Of a DNA stretch of 35,007 bases, positions 16,158 through 21,007 are shown piece after piece. Position numbers and translations under genes: made by a program. The stretch's first letter is position 1, and each line of letters opens with the position of its first letter. Origin of the DNA: Bacteroidota bacterium (GTDB lineage: Bacteria; Bacteroidota; Ignavibacteria; UBA10030; UBA6906); contig JAGDMK010000005.1 in assembly GCA_017860635.1 (NCBI GenBank), positions 1 to 35,007 of the forward strand. Direction: 5' to 3'. Under the pieces are notes generated by a model. That model worked only from the letters and a program-made list of their open reading frames with translations, was not told where the DNA came from and searched no databases.

Positions 16158-16188
16158 TTGCTTTTGACCGGGAGGCGTGTTACTTTTA
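16158..16188 (+). promoter_or_regulatory. Bacteroidota-type promoter of the nikR operon
   Basis: TTG (16158-16160) is followed after exactly 20 nt by TACTTTTA (16181-16188), matching TAnnTTTG at five of six defined positions. Transcription would begin near 16194, about 10 nt before the nikR ATG, leaving no room for a Shine-Dalgarno sequence. Confidence 0.6.
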
Positions 16189-16203
16189 GAAAAAACGTGC
16201 TAC
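16177..16203 (+). promoter_or_regulatory. Probable NikR operator: direct repeat over the promoter
   Basis: GTGTTAC (16177-16183) and GTGCTAC (16197-16203) are direct repeats separated by 13 nt. The first overlaps the -7 element; the second ends one base before the nikR ATG, so a bound protein would block RNA polymerase. NikR of E. coli uses an inverted repeat (GTATGA-N16-TCATAC). Direct repeats with a GTGTTAC half-site are, as I recall, reported for a Geobacter NikR, which needs checking. A weaker third half-site, CTGTTGC, lies at 16155-16161. Confidence 0.55.
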
Positions 16204-16204
16204 C

Positions 16205-16627
16205 ATGACGACCCAGCAGCTCACACGGTTTGGCGTGTCAATCGACGCGGATCTGATCAAGAAATTCGACCGATATATTCTTCATGCGGGCTATGGAACC
16301 AGGTCCGAAGCCATCCGAGACCTGATCCGAGCACGGCTTGTGGACGAGAAAGTCCATGACGCTGGCGCACAGGCGACCGGCGTGCTCTCGCTGGTGTACG
16401 ACCACCATAAGCGGGAACTCGAAGACCATCTCACCGGCCTGCAGCACGATCATCACGAGATGATCATCGCGACGACTCACGTCCATCTTGACCACCACAA
16501 CTGCCTGGAGGTGATTCTGCTCCGCGGCACTGTGGGCAAGATCAAGGATATCGGGGCTGCCCTGGCAAGCTTCAAGGGGGTGAAACACAGCAGTCTGAGC
16601 CTCACAGCGACCGACGAGCTGCGCTGA
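16205..16627 (+). CDS. nikR: Nickel-responsive transcriptional regulator
   Basis: The 140-residue protein has an N-terminal ribbon-helix-helix DNA-binding domain (about 5-45, LTRFGVSIDADLIKKFD... TRSEAIRDLIR). Its C-terminal ACT-like domain forms the tetramer and binds nickel. The high-affinity square-planar site is complete: H92, H94 and C100 in the motif HVHLDHHNC, with H81 from the partner subunit, equivalent to H87, H89, C95 and H76 of E. coli NikR. Nickel-bound NikR normally represses nickel uptake genes. It is the first gene of the operon, so autoregulation is likely, and a direct repeat over its promoter supports this. The receptor gene starts 65 nt downstream. Confidence 0.95.
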   Translation: MTTQQLTRFGVSIDADLIKKFDRYILHAGYGTRSEAIRDLIRARLVDEKVHDAGAQATGVLSLVYDHHKRELEDHLTGLQHDHHEMIIATTHVHLDHHNCLEVILLRGTVGKIKDIGAALASFKGVKHSSLSLTATDELR

Positions 16628-16692
16628 TGAGGTGCCGACGGAATGCACCGGCAGATCGTTCAGGTGAAACCGCCGCGCAAGGAATCCGTGCA

Positions 16693-18516
16693 ATGATGAA
16701 GCGTCTTCTCATGCTCGCAATGGTTCCGGTTTCCCTCCTCGCGCAAGCGGAGCGGGACACGGCACGAACCTATGTGCTGGATCCAGTGATCATCACGGGC
16801 ACGCACAGCGAAGCCCTTCGCAGTACCGTCCCCAATGCAGTCTCTGTCGTGAGCCGCGAGGATATCCGGCGCAGCGGTGAAACCTCCCTGCTGGCCGTGG
16901 TCAACAGACGGGTCCCCGGTGTGTTTCTGACGGAGCGGGGTGTGCTTGGGTACGGTGTGTCGACGGGAGCGGCTGGAGGCATCTCGATCCGCGGCGCCGG
17001 AGGCAGCCCGAACACGCAGGTGCTCGTGCTCACCGACGGCCGGCCGCATGTCATGGGACTCATGGGCCATCCGTTGCCGGACACGTATGTCACTGCCGGA
17101 GTGGAACGCGTGGAGGTCATTCGCGGTCCCGCGTCGCTCCTTCACGGCACGAATGCAATGGGTGGTGTCATCAACATCATCTCCGCGCGAACGCCCACGG
17201 GAGGAATCGGCGCAGACCTGTCTGCCTCTGCGGGAGGATTCGGGACGCAGAAGATCGAGGGCGGGATCGGCTATGGCACCAATGCTGGAGGCGTCTCCGT
17301 CCACGCGAGCCGCTATGTCACGGACGGTCACAGACCATACTCGTCGTTCCGGGTCAACGGAGGTTCCATTCGCGGTCACTATCAGCTTGGCCCCCGGTTC
17401 GTCCTCAGCGGGGATGCGAGCCTCTCAGGATTTAAGACTTATGATCCGGGTCCCGCGTCTGCTCCACGCATCGACAACTGGGTCGACATTGTCCGTGGCA
17501 GCTCCGGCTTTGCGCTCGAGAATCGAATGGAGAATCTTCAGGGGGCATTCAAAGGATTCTTCAATTTCGGGCGGCACGACATTTATGATGGATTCCACTC
17601 CGTTGACAACAGTACCGGACTCCTCCTGTACCAGGCAATGACTTTTGCCGGGGGGACCATCCTCACCGGTGGACTCGACTACAAACGGTACGGAGGGGTA
17701 GCGGAGAACCAGAAGTCACGTCTTGACTACGGCCGGCACTTCGTCTCCGAGTTCGGTGCATACGTCCTGCTCCAGCAGCCGCTGCTGGAGATGCTGACGC
17801 TTAGCGGCGGCCTGCGGCTGAACCACGGGAGCGTCTACGGCGACGAGATCCTTCCGCAGCTCGGCGTCGCGCTGCAGGCAAACACGGAGACCACCATCAA
17901 AGCCACCGTCGGCCGGGGATTCCGGAGTCCTACCATCCGGGAGCTCTATCTGTTTCCCGCTCCCACTCCCACGCTGGAACCCGAACGTATGTGGAACTAC
18001 GAAGTCAGCGTGCTCCGGTCGCTTGGGAACCGGTCGACACTCGAGCTGGCAGCATTCGTGGCAGACGGCAGCAATCTTATCCGGACGGAAGGGAAGTATC
18101 CAAACCTGGTCTACAGCAATTCCGGCGCCTTCGTGCACAGAGGCGTGGAATTCTCGGCAGTCGTCGGAGTTCTTGAACCCTTCACACTCGAAACCACCTA
18201 TGGATATCTGGATGCCGGCGAACAGACAATGGCCAACCCGAGACACAAGCTCTTCGTAGAAGGCCAGTATCGGGAAAAGTGGTGGTCGGTCAATGCCGGT
18301 GTCCAATATATCTCCGGACTGTACGGTGCCGATCGATCGACAAAGGCAATTACTGATTATGCCCTGCTGCAGGCCCGTCTGACTGTAACTCCGGTGGAGG
18401 GGCTCTCACTCTACATTGCCGGTGAAAATCTCACGGATGTGTCGTATCAGACGATGTGGGATTACCCGATGCCGGGGCGAACGATTCTGAGCGGTGTGCG
18501 ATGGGAGATGGAGTAA
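16693..18516 (+). CDS. TonB-dependent outer-membrane receptor (predicted nickel or metal-complex receptor)
   Basis: The 607-residue product has a signal peptide (MMKRLLMLAMVPVSLLAQA) and a TonB-box-like stretch (VLDPVIITGT). A plug domain covers about 40-165 (NAVSVVSREDIRRSG; ERVEVIRGPASLLHG; NAMGGVINII). The rest is a 22-strand-type barrel ending PGRTILSGVRWEME, with the TBDT end motif NLTDVSYQ. It is small for the family, close to vitamin-B12 receptor size. The plug apex carries a His/Met cluster, H119, M121, M124 and H126, that could bind metal. The ATG at 16693 follows AAGGA; an open frame 22 codons upstream is not signal-like. Its stop overlaps the next start (TAATG). Nickel as cargo is inferred from NikR and the ECF genes; a corrinoid or other chelate is the alternative. 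Confidence 0.88.
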   Translation: MMKRLLMLAMVPVSLLAQAERDTARTYVLDPVIITGTHSEALRSTVPNAVSVVSREDIRRSGETSLLAVVNRRVPGVFLTERGVLGYGVSTGAAGGISIRGAGGSPNTQVLVLTDGRPHVMGLMGHPLPDTYVTAGVERVEVIRGPASLLHGTNAMGGVINIISARTPTGGIGADLSASAGGFGTQKIEGGIGYGTNAGGVSVHASRYVTDGHRPYSSFRVNGGSIRGHYQLGPRFVLSGDASLSGFKTYDPGPASAPRIDNWVDIVRGSSGFALENRMENLQGAFKGFFNFGRHDIYDGFHSVDNSTGLLLYQAMTFAGGTILTGGLDYKRYGGVAENQKSRLDYGRHFVSEFGAYVLLQQPLLEMLTLSGGLRLNHGSVYGDEILPQLGVALQANTETTIKATVGRGFRSPTIRELYLFPAPTPTLEPERMWNYEVSVLRSLGNRSTLELAAFVADGSNLIRTEGKYPNLVYSNSGAFVHRGVEFSAVVGVLEPFTLETTYGYLDAGEQTMANPRHKLFVEGQYREKWWSVNAGVQYISGLYGADRSTKAITDYALLQARLTVTPVEGLSLYIAGENLTDVSYQTMWDYPMPGRTILSGVRWEME

Positions 18517-19055
18517 TGGCGCTCACAACGGAGACCGGTTTACGTTCCCCCGGACGGGAGCTTGCGTACGGCGGACTCTTCGGCGCAGCGGCGCTGGTCA
18601 TTCCCTTCTTCTTCCATCTCCTGCATCTCGGTCATATGTTCATGCCGATGTATATTCCGTTGATGGCTCTCCCTTTTTTCGTAAGGCCGGTTGTTGCGTC
18701 GCTGGTTGGTCTCATCGTCCCGGTCCTTTCGGGTCTCATGGCAGGGATGCCTCCGTTTTTCCCTCCGGTGGCTCCGGTGATGGCCATCGAACTTGCCTGC
18801 ATGGCAGGCCTTCTCGCGCATCTGCGGCAGCGCTGGCCGCTGACCCATATCCTGTTCCATCTCGTTCCCGTGCTGCTTCTCGGGAGGATCATCAACATCG
18901 GCTTGCTCTATGCTTCATCGCTCTGGCTTGAACTTCCTGCGGAGTTCCTCGCCGGGCTCTCGTTTATCACCGGATGGCCGGGCATCATCCTTATGGTCGT
19001 CGTGCTGCCCGCCATCGCCCGGTTGAACAGACGTGTGAGCGTGGCCCATGGATAG
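18516..19055 (+). CDS. ECF transporter S component of unassigned specificity
   Basis: The 179-residue membrane protein has six predicted helices, the size and pattern of substrate-binding S components of energy-coupling-factor transporters (ECF_trnsprt-like, with GHMFMPMYIP after helix 1 and GLMAGMPP after helix 3). It lacks the N-terminal Met-His-Ile metal hook of the CbiM/NikM cobalt and nickel components, so it is not a standard nickel S component. Instead it has a His/Met cluster at the end of helix 1: H34, H37, H40, M41, M43 and M45. The ATG shares one base with the receptor stop. The downstream methyltransferase gene overlaps its end by 8 bases. The ECF call rests on size, helices and the T and A genes beside it. 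Confidence 0.75.
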   Translation: MALTTETGLRSPGRELAYGGLFGAAALVIPFFFHLLHLGHMFMPMYIPLMALPFFVRPVVASLVGLIVPVLSGLMAGMPPFFPPVAPVMAIELACMAGLLAHLRQRWPLTHILFHLVPVLLLGRIINIGLLYASSLWLELPAEFLAGLSFITGWPGIILMVVVLPAIARLNRRVSVAHG

Positions 19056-19659
19056 CACTCAGAGCAGGCAGGACTACTTCAATGACCTCTCGGGTCGATG
19101 GGATGGTTTTACAGATGGCGAGCGCGTCCGGATGGCGCTCCGGAAGGCGTTGTCCACTGTATCGATCGACCAGGAAGAACACGTAGTGGACCTCGGTTGC
19201 GGGACGGGGAATCTGACCTCAGTGCTCACGGAGATCCTCGGACCAGGCGGGACAATCACGGCGGTGGACTTTTCGGGGGCGATGATTGAAGTCGCCCGCA
19301 ACAAAGTGCGCGACCCCCGCGTGCGATGGCTTGTCGCAGATGCTGCACGGCTTCCGCTGGAGGACGCCAGCATTGACAGGGTCATCTGCTTCAGTGCGTG
19401 GCCGCATTTCCCCGACCCATCAGCCGCAGCCCGTGAACTTTTCCGGATCCTCAGGCCGGGGGGGATGCTTCACATCCTGCACATCAATTCGCGCGAATCC
19501 ATTAACGCTGTCCATGGCGGCGTCGGGGGCGCGATCGGCCACGATGTTCTCCCATCTGCACGTGACCTTGCTGGTGTGCTGAGAGCATGCGGATTCGATG
19601 TGTGCGAGGAGGTTGATACGGACACGGCATACAGGGTTGCCGGGGAGAAGGTCGTATGA
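19048..19659 (+). CDS. Class I SAM-dependent methyltransferase in the ECF operon
   Basis: The 203-residue cytoplasmic enzyme has the UbiE/Methyltransf_11-type Rossmann fold. Motif I is VVDLGCGTGNL (residues 46-56), the acidic ribose-binding residue is D74 (TAVDFSGAM), VADAARLPLED is motif II, and FRILRPGGMLHI is the motif III region. The C-terminal part is histidine-rich (H142, H145, H156, H165) and has C181 and C186, which could coordinate metal. It overlaps the S component by 8 bases and the T component by 4, so it is made in step with the transporter. Its methyl acceptor is unknown. It could act on the imported ligand, for example to trap, release or break down a chelator. Confidence 0.85.
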   Translation: MDSTQSRQDYFNDLSGRWDGFTDGERVRMALRKALSTVSIDQEEHVVDLGCGTGNLTSVLTEILGPGGTITAVDFSGAMIEVARNKVRDPRVRWLVADAARLPLEDASIDRVICFSAWPHFPDPSAAARELFRILRPGGMLHILHINSRESINAVHGGVGGAIGHDVLPSARDLAGVLRACGFDVCEEVDTDTAYRVAGEKVV

Positions 19660-20324
19660 CCGTCCCACACGCTCATCCGGCTCATCCGCTGGCTCGTCTG
19701 TGTGGAGGTGCCATACTCCTCTGCGGGTGTCTTGTCGCGGACCACACGACTGTGGCGGGACTCATCGTGCTTCCTGCCGTGGCTTTGAGTGCCCTTCTTC
19801 TCCAGCGAACCCGGCTCACATCGATGGCCAGACTGATGCTGGCAGGTACCTTGTTTTATCTCCCGGTGGTTGTGCTTGCATCACCCGGCGTCGCTCTCAA
19901 AGGTCTCTCTGCCGCGATTGTCGGGGTGGCCACGGTATCCTCTCTCGGCCCGCAGGCGCTGCATGATGCGATCATTCGCATGCCGCTTCCCGCGCTGGTG
20001 CGGTTGCTGGTTCTCCAGATGGTGCATCAGGCAGAAGTATTGCGCCGTGAATCGGTGCGCATCCATCAGGCCCTGGTCGTACGGGGCGGGGTGGATGGCA
20101 TCCGGGGTATCTGGGAATTCGCAAAGGCGATTCCCGTCGTGTGGCTCCCGCGCGTCCTGTTCCGGGCTGATCGAGTAGGCATGGCCATGGACATGCGGGG
20201 ATATGGAGCCATCGTGCCAGCGGCACGCTCAGTGCGCTGGAGGGGAATCGACTTCGGCGTGGTCTTCGGTTCGCTCGGGGTCGCCGTTGCCGCAGTGTGG
20301 TTCTCTGCCCTGGTCCTGATATGA
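19656..20324 (+). CDS. ECF transporter T component (CbiQ/EcfT-like)
   Basis: The 222-residue inner-membrane protein couples the ATPase to the S component. After several N-terminal helices it has a cytoplasmic coupling helix region (about 105-175). That region contains RRESVRIHQALVVRGG and RADRVGMAMDMRGYG, the latter the family's second Ala-Arg-Gly-type motif with Met in place of Ala. The N terminus is histidine-rich (HAHPAH, residues 5-10). The start overlaps the methyltransferase stop as ATGA, and the stop overlaps the ATPase start as ATGA, so coupling is tight. The sequence is closer to CbiQ-type dedicated T components than to shared EcfT. Confidence 0.87.
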   Translation: MTVPHAHPAHPLARLCGGAILLCGCLVADHTTVAGLIVLPAVALSALLLQRTRLTSMARLMLAGTLFYLPVVVLASPGVALKGLSAAIVGVATVSSLGPQALHDAIIRMPLPALVRLLVLQMVHQAEVLRRESVRIHQALVVRGGVDGIRGIWEFAKAIPVVWLPRVLFRADRVGMAMDMRGYGAIVPAARSVRWRGIDFGVVFGSLGVAVAAVWFSALVLI

Positions 20325-21007
20325 CGGACCTTCCGATCGTTCTGCGCTTCGACGACGTTTCCGTCCGGCACAGCGGCAGCCACGTGGACGCGATTCACGG
20401 GTGTTCGCTGGAGATGAAGGAGGGCGAGCATGTTGCACTCCTCGGCCTGAATGGATCGGGGAAAACCAGCCTCCTGATGGCTGCGGCGGGTCTGCTCCCG
20501 CACGAAGGGACTATCGATGTCGATGGGATACGGCTGGAGAATTCCTCACTGGCGGAGGTCCGGCGGAGAATCGGATTTCTCTTCTCCACCCCCGAAGATC
20601 AGCTGCTGTTCCCCAGGGTGTTGGATGATGTGGCGTTCAGCCTGACGACGCAGGGAAGGAAGGAAGGCGAAGCCAGGGAGGAATCGGAGCGGATGCTGGA
20701 GGCGATGGGGGTCGGCGCTCTGGCGAACGCCGCGCCGTATGAACTCTCCTTCGGGCAGAAGATGCGCGTAGCGCTTTCCGGTGCCCTTGTGCACAAACCG
20801 CGGCTGCTTCTTCTCGACGAGCCATCCGGGGCTCTGGATCCGCCCGGAAAGCGGGCCCTTGCCGCGCTGTTCGCTGCGCATCCCTCAGCAATGCTGATCG
20901 CGACTCACGACCTTGTGTTTGCCGAGAGGTGCTGCGACCGGTTCATTCTGCTGGAAGCAGGGAAGGTCGTCAGGGATACCGTGCAGATAGGCGAGATCAC
21001 TCTCTAA
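20321..21007 (+). CDS. ECF transporter ATP-binding protein (CbiO/EcfA-like)
   Basis: The 228-residue ABC ATPase has Walker A GLNGSGKTS (residues 42-50), the Q-loop FSTPEDQLLFP typical of CbiO/EcfA, signature LSFGQKMRVAL (the second Gly of LSGGQ replaced by Phe), Walker B LLLLDEPSGALDP and the H-loop ATHD. The ATG at 20321 overlaps the T-component stop as ATGA; an ATG eight codons upstream lies within that gene. Only one ATPase gene is present, so a homodimer is expected, as in nickel and cobalt ECF systems. It is the last gene of the nikR operon. No T-rich terminator follows directly; palindromes and repeats fill the next 230 bases. Confidence 0.92.
   Translation: MTDLPIVLRFDDVSVRHSGSHVDAIHGCSLEMKEGEHVALLGLNGSGKTSLLMAAAGLLPHEGTIDVDGIRLENSSLAEVRRRIGFLFSTPEDQLLFPRVLDDVAFSLTTQGRKEGEAREESERMLEAMGVGALANAAPYELSFGQKMRVALSGALVHKPRLLLLDEPSGALDPPGKRALAALFAAHPSAMLIATHDLVFAERCCDRFILLEAGKVVRDTVQIGEITL

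Follow-up and report, generated by a model that had tools for sequence, protein, structure and literature searches.

A predicted NikR operator in direct-repeat arrangement at the nikR promoter of a Bacteroidota bacterium and its relatives

A direct repeat just upstream of nikR in a Bacteroidota bacterium, GTGTTAC-N13-GTGCTAC, is predicted from sequence comparisons to be the operator by which NikR controls its own gene, with the protein reading each half-site regardless of the direction in which it points; we put the probability of this reading at roughly four in five. The site lies within a stretch of 35,007 nucleotides (the window; Table 1). NikR is a textbook metal-responsive repressor, and its operators are described as inverted repeats. 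The window appears to hold a real and conserved NikR operator in an arrangement that we did not find described: no direct-repeat NikR operator turned up in the literature searched, a body of text that lacks most subscription papers. Comparison with relatives suggests that the repressor tolerates either arrangement, provided that the two halves lie two helical turns apart.

The first-pass annotation had claimed that this direct repeat covers the -7 element of the promoter and reaches the nikR ATG, and that site, regulator and target genes are neighbours. The repeat is indeed found as claimed at 16177-16203, and it stops one base short of the start codon, with a lone C between the second half-site and the ATG at 16205. 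The GTGTTAC-type NikR operator is characterized by two GTGYTAC-like half-sites with 13 or 14 bases between them and by a location ahead of nikR or of genes for nickel uptake, and both features are present here. The published arrangements of such operators are convergent (-><-) or divergent (<-->), and the window's repeat is neither, as its halves run in the same direction. Bacteroidota-type promoters have the consensus TTG at -33 and TAnnTTTG at -7. These two elements occur here at the fixed distance. The overlap with the -7 element holds as well: TACTTTTA lies at 16181-16188, with a TTG 23 bp upstream of its TA.

Table 1 Features of the predicted operator, the nikR promoter and the genes behind it, in positions of the window.
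Feature	Position	Strand	Remarks
TTG, presumed -33 element	16158..16160	+	23 bp upstream of the -7 TA
NikR operator (predicted), GTGTTAC-N13-GTGCTAC direct repeat	16177..16203	+	half-site centres 20 bp apart
First half-site, GTGTTAC	16177..16183	+	TA at 16181-16182 doubles as the -7 TA
TACTTTTA, presumed Bacteroidota-type -7 element	16181..16188	+	one mismatch to TAnnTTTG
Spacer between half-sites	16184-16196		13 bases
Second half-site, GTGCTAC	16197..16203	+	same direction as first half-site
nikR, 140 aa	16205..16627	+	reads DNA with an Arg-Gly-Ser strand (R8, G10, S12); all four E. coli NikR nickel ligands conserved
TonB-dependent outer-membrane receptor, predicted operon member	16627..18516	+	likely true start ATG 16693 or 16696
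Membrane protein, weak match to ECF substrate-specific component	18456..19055	+	PF12822, E 0.0024, below Pfam cut-off
SAM-dependent methyltransferase-like protein	19048..19659	+	inside transporter operon (predicted)
CbiQ-like ECF transmembrane (T) component, weak match	19656..20324	+	PF02361, E 1.2e-4, below Pfam cut-off
ECF-type ABC ATPase (CbiO-like)	20297..21007	+	

The gene adjoining the site encodes a NikR regulator. Its product combines the ribbon-helix-helix (RHH) domain (PF01402, RHH_1, E 1.9e-5) with the C-terminal nickel domain of this family (PF08753, NikR_C, E 6.6e-31; both Pfam), and it scores 169 bits against NCBIfam NF003381, where the cut-off is 105. Its nearest solved relatives are NikR chains, including 2bj1, 1q5v, 2wvd and 2ca9. 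When the protein is aligned to 1q5v, which we take to be E. coli NikR with ligands numbered H76, H87, H89 and C95, the His/His/His/Cys nickel ligands are conserved. The strand that reads DNA has the sequence R-F-G-V-S, that is, Arg-Gly-Ser, presumably the type found in Geobacter uraniireducens NikR.

Behind nikR, the frames overlap or nearly overlap as far as the ECF ATPase, and nikR, the receptor and the ECF genes probably form a single nickel-uptake operon. Gene calls and family profile matches bear out the adjacency of site, regulator and predicted target genes. The open reading frame at 18456..19055 probably starts at an internal ATG near 18501 or 18516; the predicted substrate-specific component that it encodes carries a His-rich HLLHLGHMFMPMYIP stretch, which recurs in locus L021 and partly in L039. 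The methyltransferase-like gene sits between the substrate-specific and T components, and the order of genes is identical in L021.

We scanned the genome (3.94 Mb, 395 contigs, 88% complete) with a neutral pattern, GTRNYAC-N13-GTRNYAC in any orientation. The site at 16177-16203 is the sole match, while the reversed-pattern control matches four places. Across 98 genomes of the order, the strict direct pattern is not above control, with nine matches against 12 for the reversed pattern, a frequency that taken by itself would fit a chance resemblance. Because these raw counts do not exceed the control, the weight falls on location: four of the nine matches lie directly upstream of nikR and two immediately ahead of TonB receptors that are alike in type, the rest being two inside unrelated coding ORFs, in genomes without a NikR match, and one between unrelated ORFs. 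Chance has virtually no claim on the window's repeat, given its unique position at the nikR promoter, its conservation in relatives whose spacer has drifted, and the sharp peak of N13 and N14 pairs near nikR in two sets of genomes (below). Scans that allow up to two mismatches give a control as high as the observed count and were used for single sites only. A direct site with two mismatches in L057 was regarded as chance, and a perfect GTGTTAC-N13-GTGTTAC in genome G077 (L116 1501-1527), between epimerase-like and methionine-synthase-like ORFs and with nikR elsewhere, is probably chance too.

Had the repeat been missing upstream of orthologous operons, this would, according to the first-pass annotation, have spoken against an operator. 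We find instead that position and orientation are both kept upstream of orthologous nikR genes. All 98 genomes of the order were searched; 27 yield a NikR match, two of which are fragments, and among the remaining 25 nikR promoters seven are direct (the window included), 14 are convergent with at most two mismatches, and four (G052, G004, G077 and G065) have a weak site or none. The direct promoters belong to family f1 (G000, G001, G002, G016, G010 and, with N14, G007) and to another family of the order (G029); for G001, G002 and G016 the sequence was taken from the named twins L020-L022. Outside the order, G134, of the same class, also has a direct repeat at nikR. The second half-site reads GTGCCAC in both G010 and G134, and the G010 site contains one mismatch. 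In three nikR promoters of a single genus, both half-sites are identical although the spacer and flanks have diverged. These results support the proposal of a NikR operator, with binding predicted: the gene is a NikR, the repeat is kept upstream of its orthologues, and it recurs at receptor genes elsewhere. A direct-repeat operator describes the window and these relatives well, but as a description of the order it is too narrow, since convergent sites with the same spacing are used there as well.

In 148 loci chosen solely because they encode NikR, excluding duplicates and loci fetched by pattern, we counted pairs of neutral half-sites at each spacing between 5 and 30. There are 27 pairs at N13, five at N14 and 11 in all at the other 24 spacings; ten dinucleotide shuffles gave 0-2 pairs at N13/N14 (mean about 0.5) compared with the 32 observed. 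These 32 comprise nine direct, nine convergent and eight divergent pairs, and six in which at least one half is symmetric. A second set came from another phylum, that of locus L045, where NikR was matched in 43 of 82 genomes. Of the 30 loci listed for these matches, two were already in our collection; the 28 new ones yield 15 N13 pairs, no N14 pair and one pair at another spacing, and the 15 divide into ten convergent, two direct and three with a symmetric half. In the wider phylum of the window, family f27 has mostly divergent (<-->) N13 pairs (L148, L149, L152, L154 and others). The divergent site of L152 lies just upstream of an outer-membrane gene, and two f27 loci also have a direct pair with one mismatch. 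The three arrangements share one spacing.

Direction would mean little if the outer GT...AC were all that NikR required of the second half-site, in which case the repeat would be a degenerate inverted repeat and its "direct" label would describe letters of no importance. The GT and AC ends are indeed common to both directions, GTGCTAC agrees with the inverted half-site at four of seven positions, and the GTGCCAC of G010 and G134 fits either reading nearly equally. Nevertheless, 57 of the 64 half-sites in the first set are asymmetric, with G3 paired with T5 or A3 with C5, where independent positions 3 and 5 would make about half of them so, and the same-genus promoters keep GTGCTAC exact while their spacers drift. 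The direction of the half-sites is therefore real, and we consider the degenerate inverted repeat unlikely.

The first half-site is in register with the promoter. In every one of the 22 site-bearing nikR promoters (those of the order plus one genome of the same class), a TTG stands exactly 23 bp before the TA at half-site positions 5-6, and the match to TAnnTTTG from that TA has 0-2 mismatches throughout. In the second phylum, the distance from TTG to TA is 23 bp at 11 of 12 nikR-promoter sites and 22 bp at the twelfth. Since its TA also serves as the -7 TA, the direction of the first half-site is fixed. The difference between direct and convergent promoters lies in the second half-site alone; only this half flips.

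In most of family f1, as in the window, the second half-site stops one base before the ATG, so that the context of the start codon could itself conserve it. It might then be kept for reasons of translation start or promoter function, or the repeat might be bound by another regulator. We think either very improbable. The direct repeat starts at -47 of nikR in L045 and at -108 in L051, and it occurs 42 bp (G004) and 8 or 38 bp (G052) from the starts of receptor genes; moreover, in the convergent members of the order this half-site word recurs in the reverse direction with its distance unchanged. On location and conservation we rejected this reading together with that of chance.

Direct sites apart from the nikR promoter are found upstream of TonB receptors in G004, G052, L038, L188 and L196. 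In G052 the repeat precedes the GTG of the receptor by 8 bp and its likelier ATG by 38 bp; in G004 it lies 42 bp before the receptor ATG, with a TTG/TA register identical to that of the nikR promoters. G004 belongs to the window's family, and its nikR locus (L018) encodes a NikR of a distant lineage and has no recognisable site at its own promoter; its receptor locus (L102) keeps the direct repeat and the promoter register despite this. At L084, a direct site lies upstream of a set of outer-membrane and CbiM-like genes, named from the look of their translations. No TTG-N20-TA register was found at the '<<' direct sites of L038, L084, L188 and L196 (four of four). Where a TonB receptor adjoins nikR, it is often preceded by a NikR-like pair of its own that lies immediately beyond the nikR gene and has both halves in one direction ('<<' relative to the gene), as in L188, L196, L038 and L100. 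In G010, whose nikR promoter is direct, a perfect convergent NikR-like site lies at a contig edge (L121 1-62), 36 bases from the contig end; any gene that it might control would be off the contig.

We looked for a change in the protein that might account for the direct arrangement and found none. Not one alignment column separates the ten NikR proteins with direct sites from the 16 with convergent sites, and the reading strand is the same in both classes. The orientation classes cluster on the NikR tree, where the direct class requires at least two changes on well-supported branches, several deep forks being weak; the tallies on the tree (nine direct, 13 convergent and two divergent), made with a stricter limit on sites, are lower bounds that leave out L006 (direct, N14) and L084 (convergent). 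Given this clustering, changes of arrangement have been few, and the eight nikR promoters with a direct site in the order and class do not count as independent cases.

According to our preferred reading, a nickel-bound NikR tetramer would occupy both half-sites, each with one of its RHH dimers, across a distance of two helical turns. It would cover the -7 element along with the bases that follow as far as the start codon, shutting off nikR together with the receptor and ECF-transporter genes behind it. Binding, dependence on nickel and repression are what knowledge of the family would lead one to expect. What would be held constant is the distance between half-site centres, 20 or rarely 21 bp. 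The direct arrangement may work because of the two-fold symmetry of an RHH dimer, which is centred on its half-site: a half-site could be turned round and the protein would stay in place. With the first half-site held by the -7 TA and the second free, relatives would be expected to have a direct repeat in some cases and a convergent one in others. The model predicts a free direction, a fixed centre distance and an unchanged reading strand, as seen.

Two NikR tetramers might instead sit side by side, each on a single half-site, with no one tetramer bridging both. In other regulators direct repeats often mean head-to-tail binding, and G. uraniireducens NikR reportedly binds cooperatively. Yet the spacing equals that of convergent and divergent sites and is almost never anything but 13 or 14, as a single rigid tetramer demands; for Helicobacter pylori, the 20 nt between centres are ascribed to one tetramer (PMC5385501). 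We hold the two-tetramer arrangement to be improbable, somewhat more so than the degenerate inverted repeat.

Beyond the window, we consider it rather probable that NikR is blind to direction at its half-sites: convergent, divergent and direct operators would be interchangeable, the code would be a centre distance of 20 or 21 bp, and direction would be set by the letters shared with the promoter. The direct repeat would then be a recurrent, functional third kind of operator that searches for inverted repeats miss, notably at TonB receptors. In L038 and L084, two arrangements occur within one genome: the nikR site is convergent, and the operon that follows has a perfect direct site. As a counterpoint, there are few such mixes, and in both of these the convergent site has one mismatch. 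The NikR of H. pylori binds asymmetrically, with a preference for one of its half-sites (PMC9860126), and half-sites therefore need not be equivalent. Should the direction of half-sites be free, searches for regulons that rely on dyad symmetry would miss sites, here the direct repeats ahead of nikR and of TonB receptor genes. A tetramer with two flippable DNA-reading heads would also be a clean, small system in which a symmetric protein reads asymmetric DNA. The case further shows a simple cause of operator architecture: a half-site that shares letters with the -7 element cannot turn round.

The closest known sites are the delta-proteobacterial NikR operators GTGTTAC-[N13/14]-GTAACAC (Rodionov et al, 2004; PMC545781), which share with the window the half-site word, the spacing and the location upstream of nickel-uptake genes. 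Table 4 of that paper gives convergent sites for Geobacter, Desulfuromonas and Desulfovibrio. It has divergent sites (<-->) in two sulfate reducers, in Desulfotalea and at D. vulgaris nikK, and these are the only two arrangements in it. Unlike these, the window's pair runs in the same direction, as do those at the nikR promoters of seven other genomes; the direct repeat is therefore a third arrangement beside the published two. The Geobacter precedent for a direct repeat that the first-pass annotation had mentioned is not borne out by this table, where the Geobacter sites are listed as convergent. For Caldithrix abyssi, the genome paper reports that nikR and TonB receptor loci carry a motif resembling that of NikR, given in its supplement, and direct sites may already be in that supplementary table.

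The E. coli NikR operator resembles the window's in having two half-sites, a regulator of the same family and a nickel-import operon as its target, but GTATGA-N16-TCATAC is a different half-site word and a perfect inverted repeat (PMC7055735). The operators of H. pylori NikR (TRTTA-N15-TAWTA) likewise have centres 20 nt apart, and their core TRNYA is common to TGTTA and TGCTA; they differ in being poorly conserved pseudo-palindromes at many promoters, with activation as well as repression. The paper on these operators describes the H. pylori tetramer as presenting two RHH dimers two turns apart (PMC5385501). Among other RHH proteins, Omega/ParB of pSM19035 is a precedent in that its dimers bind non-palindromic 7-bp sites in direct or inverted pairs, but these are contiguous heptad arrays bound by separate dimers, with no metal sensing and no fixed two-turn tetramer (PMC9499535). 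CdbA of Myxococcus xanthus differs in the 4-bp gap of its site and in being a nucleoid protein connected with c-di-GMP; like NikR on the window's predicted operator, it is an RHH tetramer, and its consensus is a direct repeat (PMC7156744).
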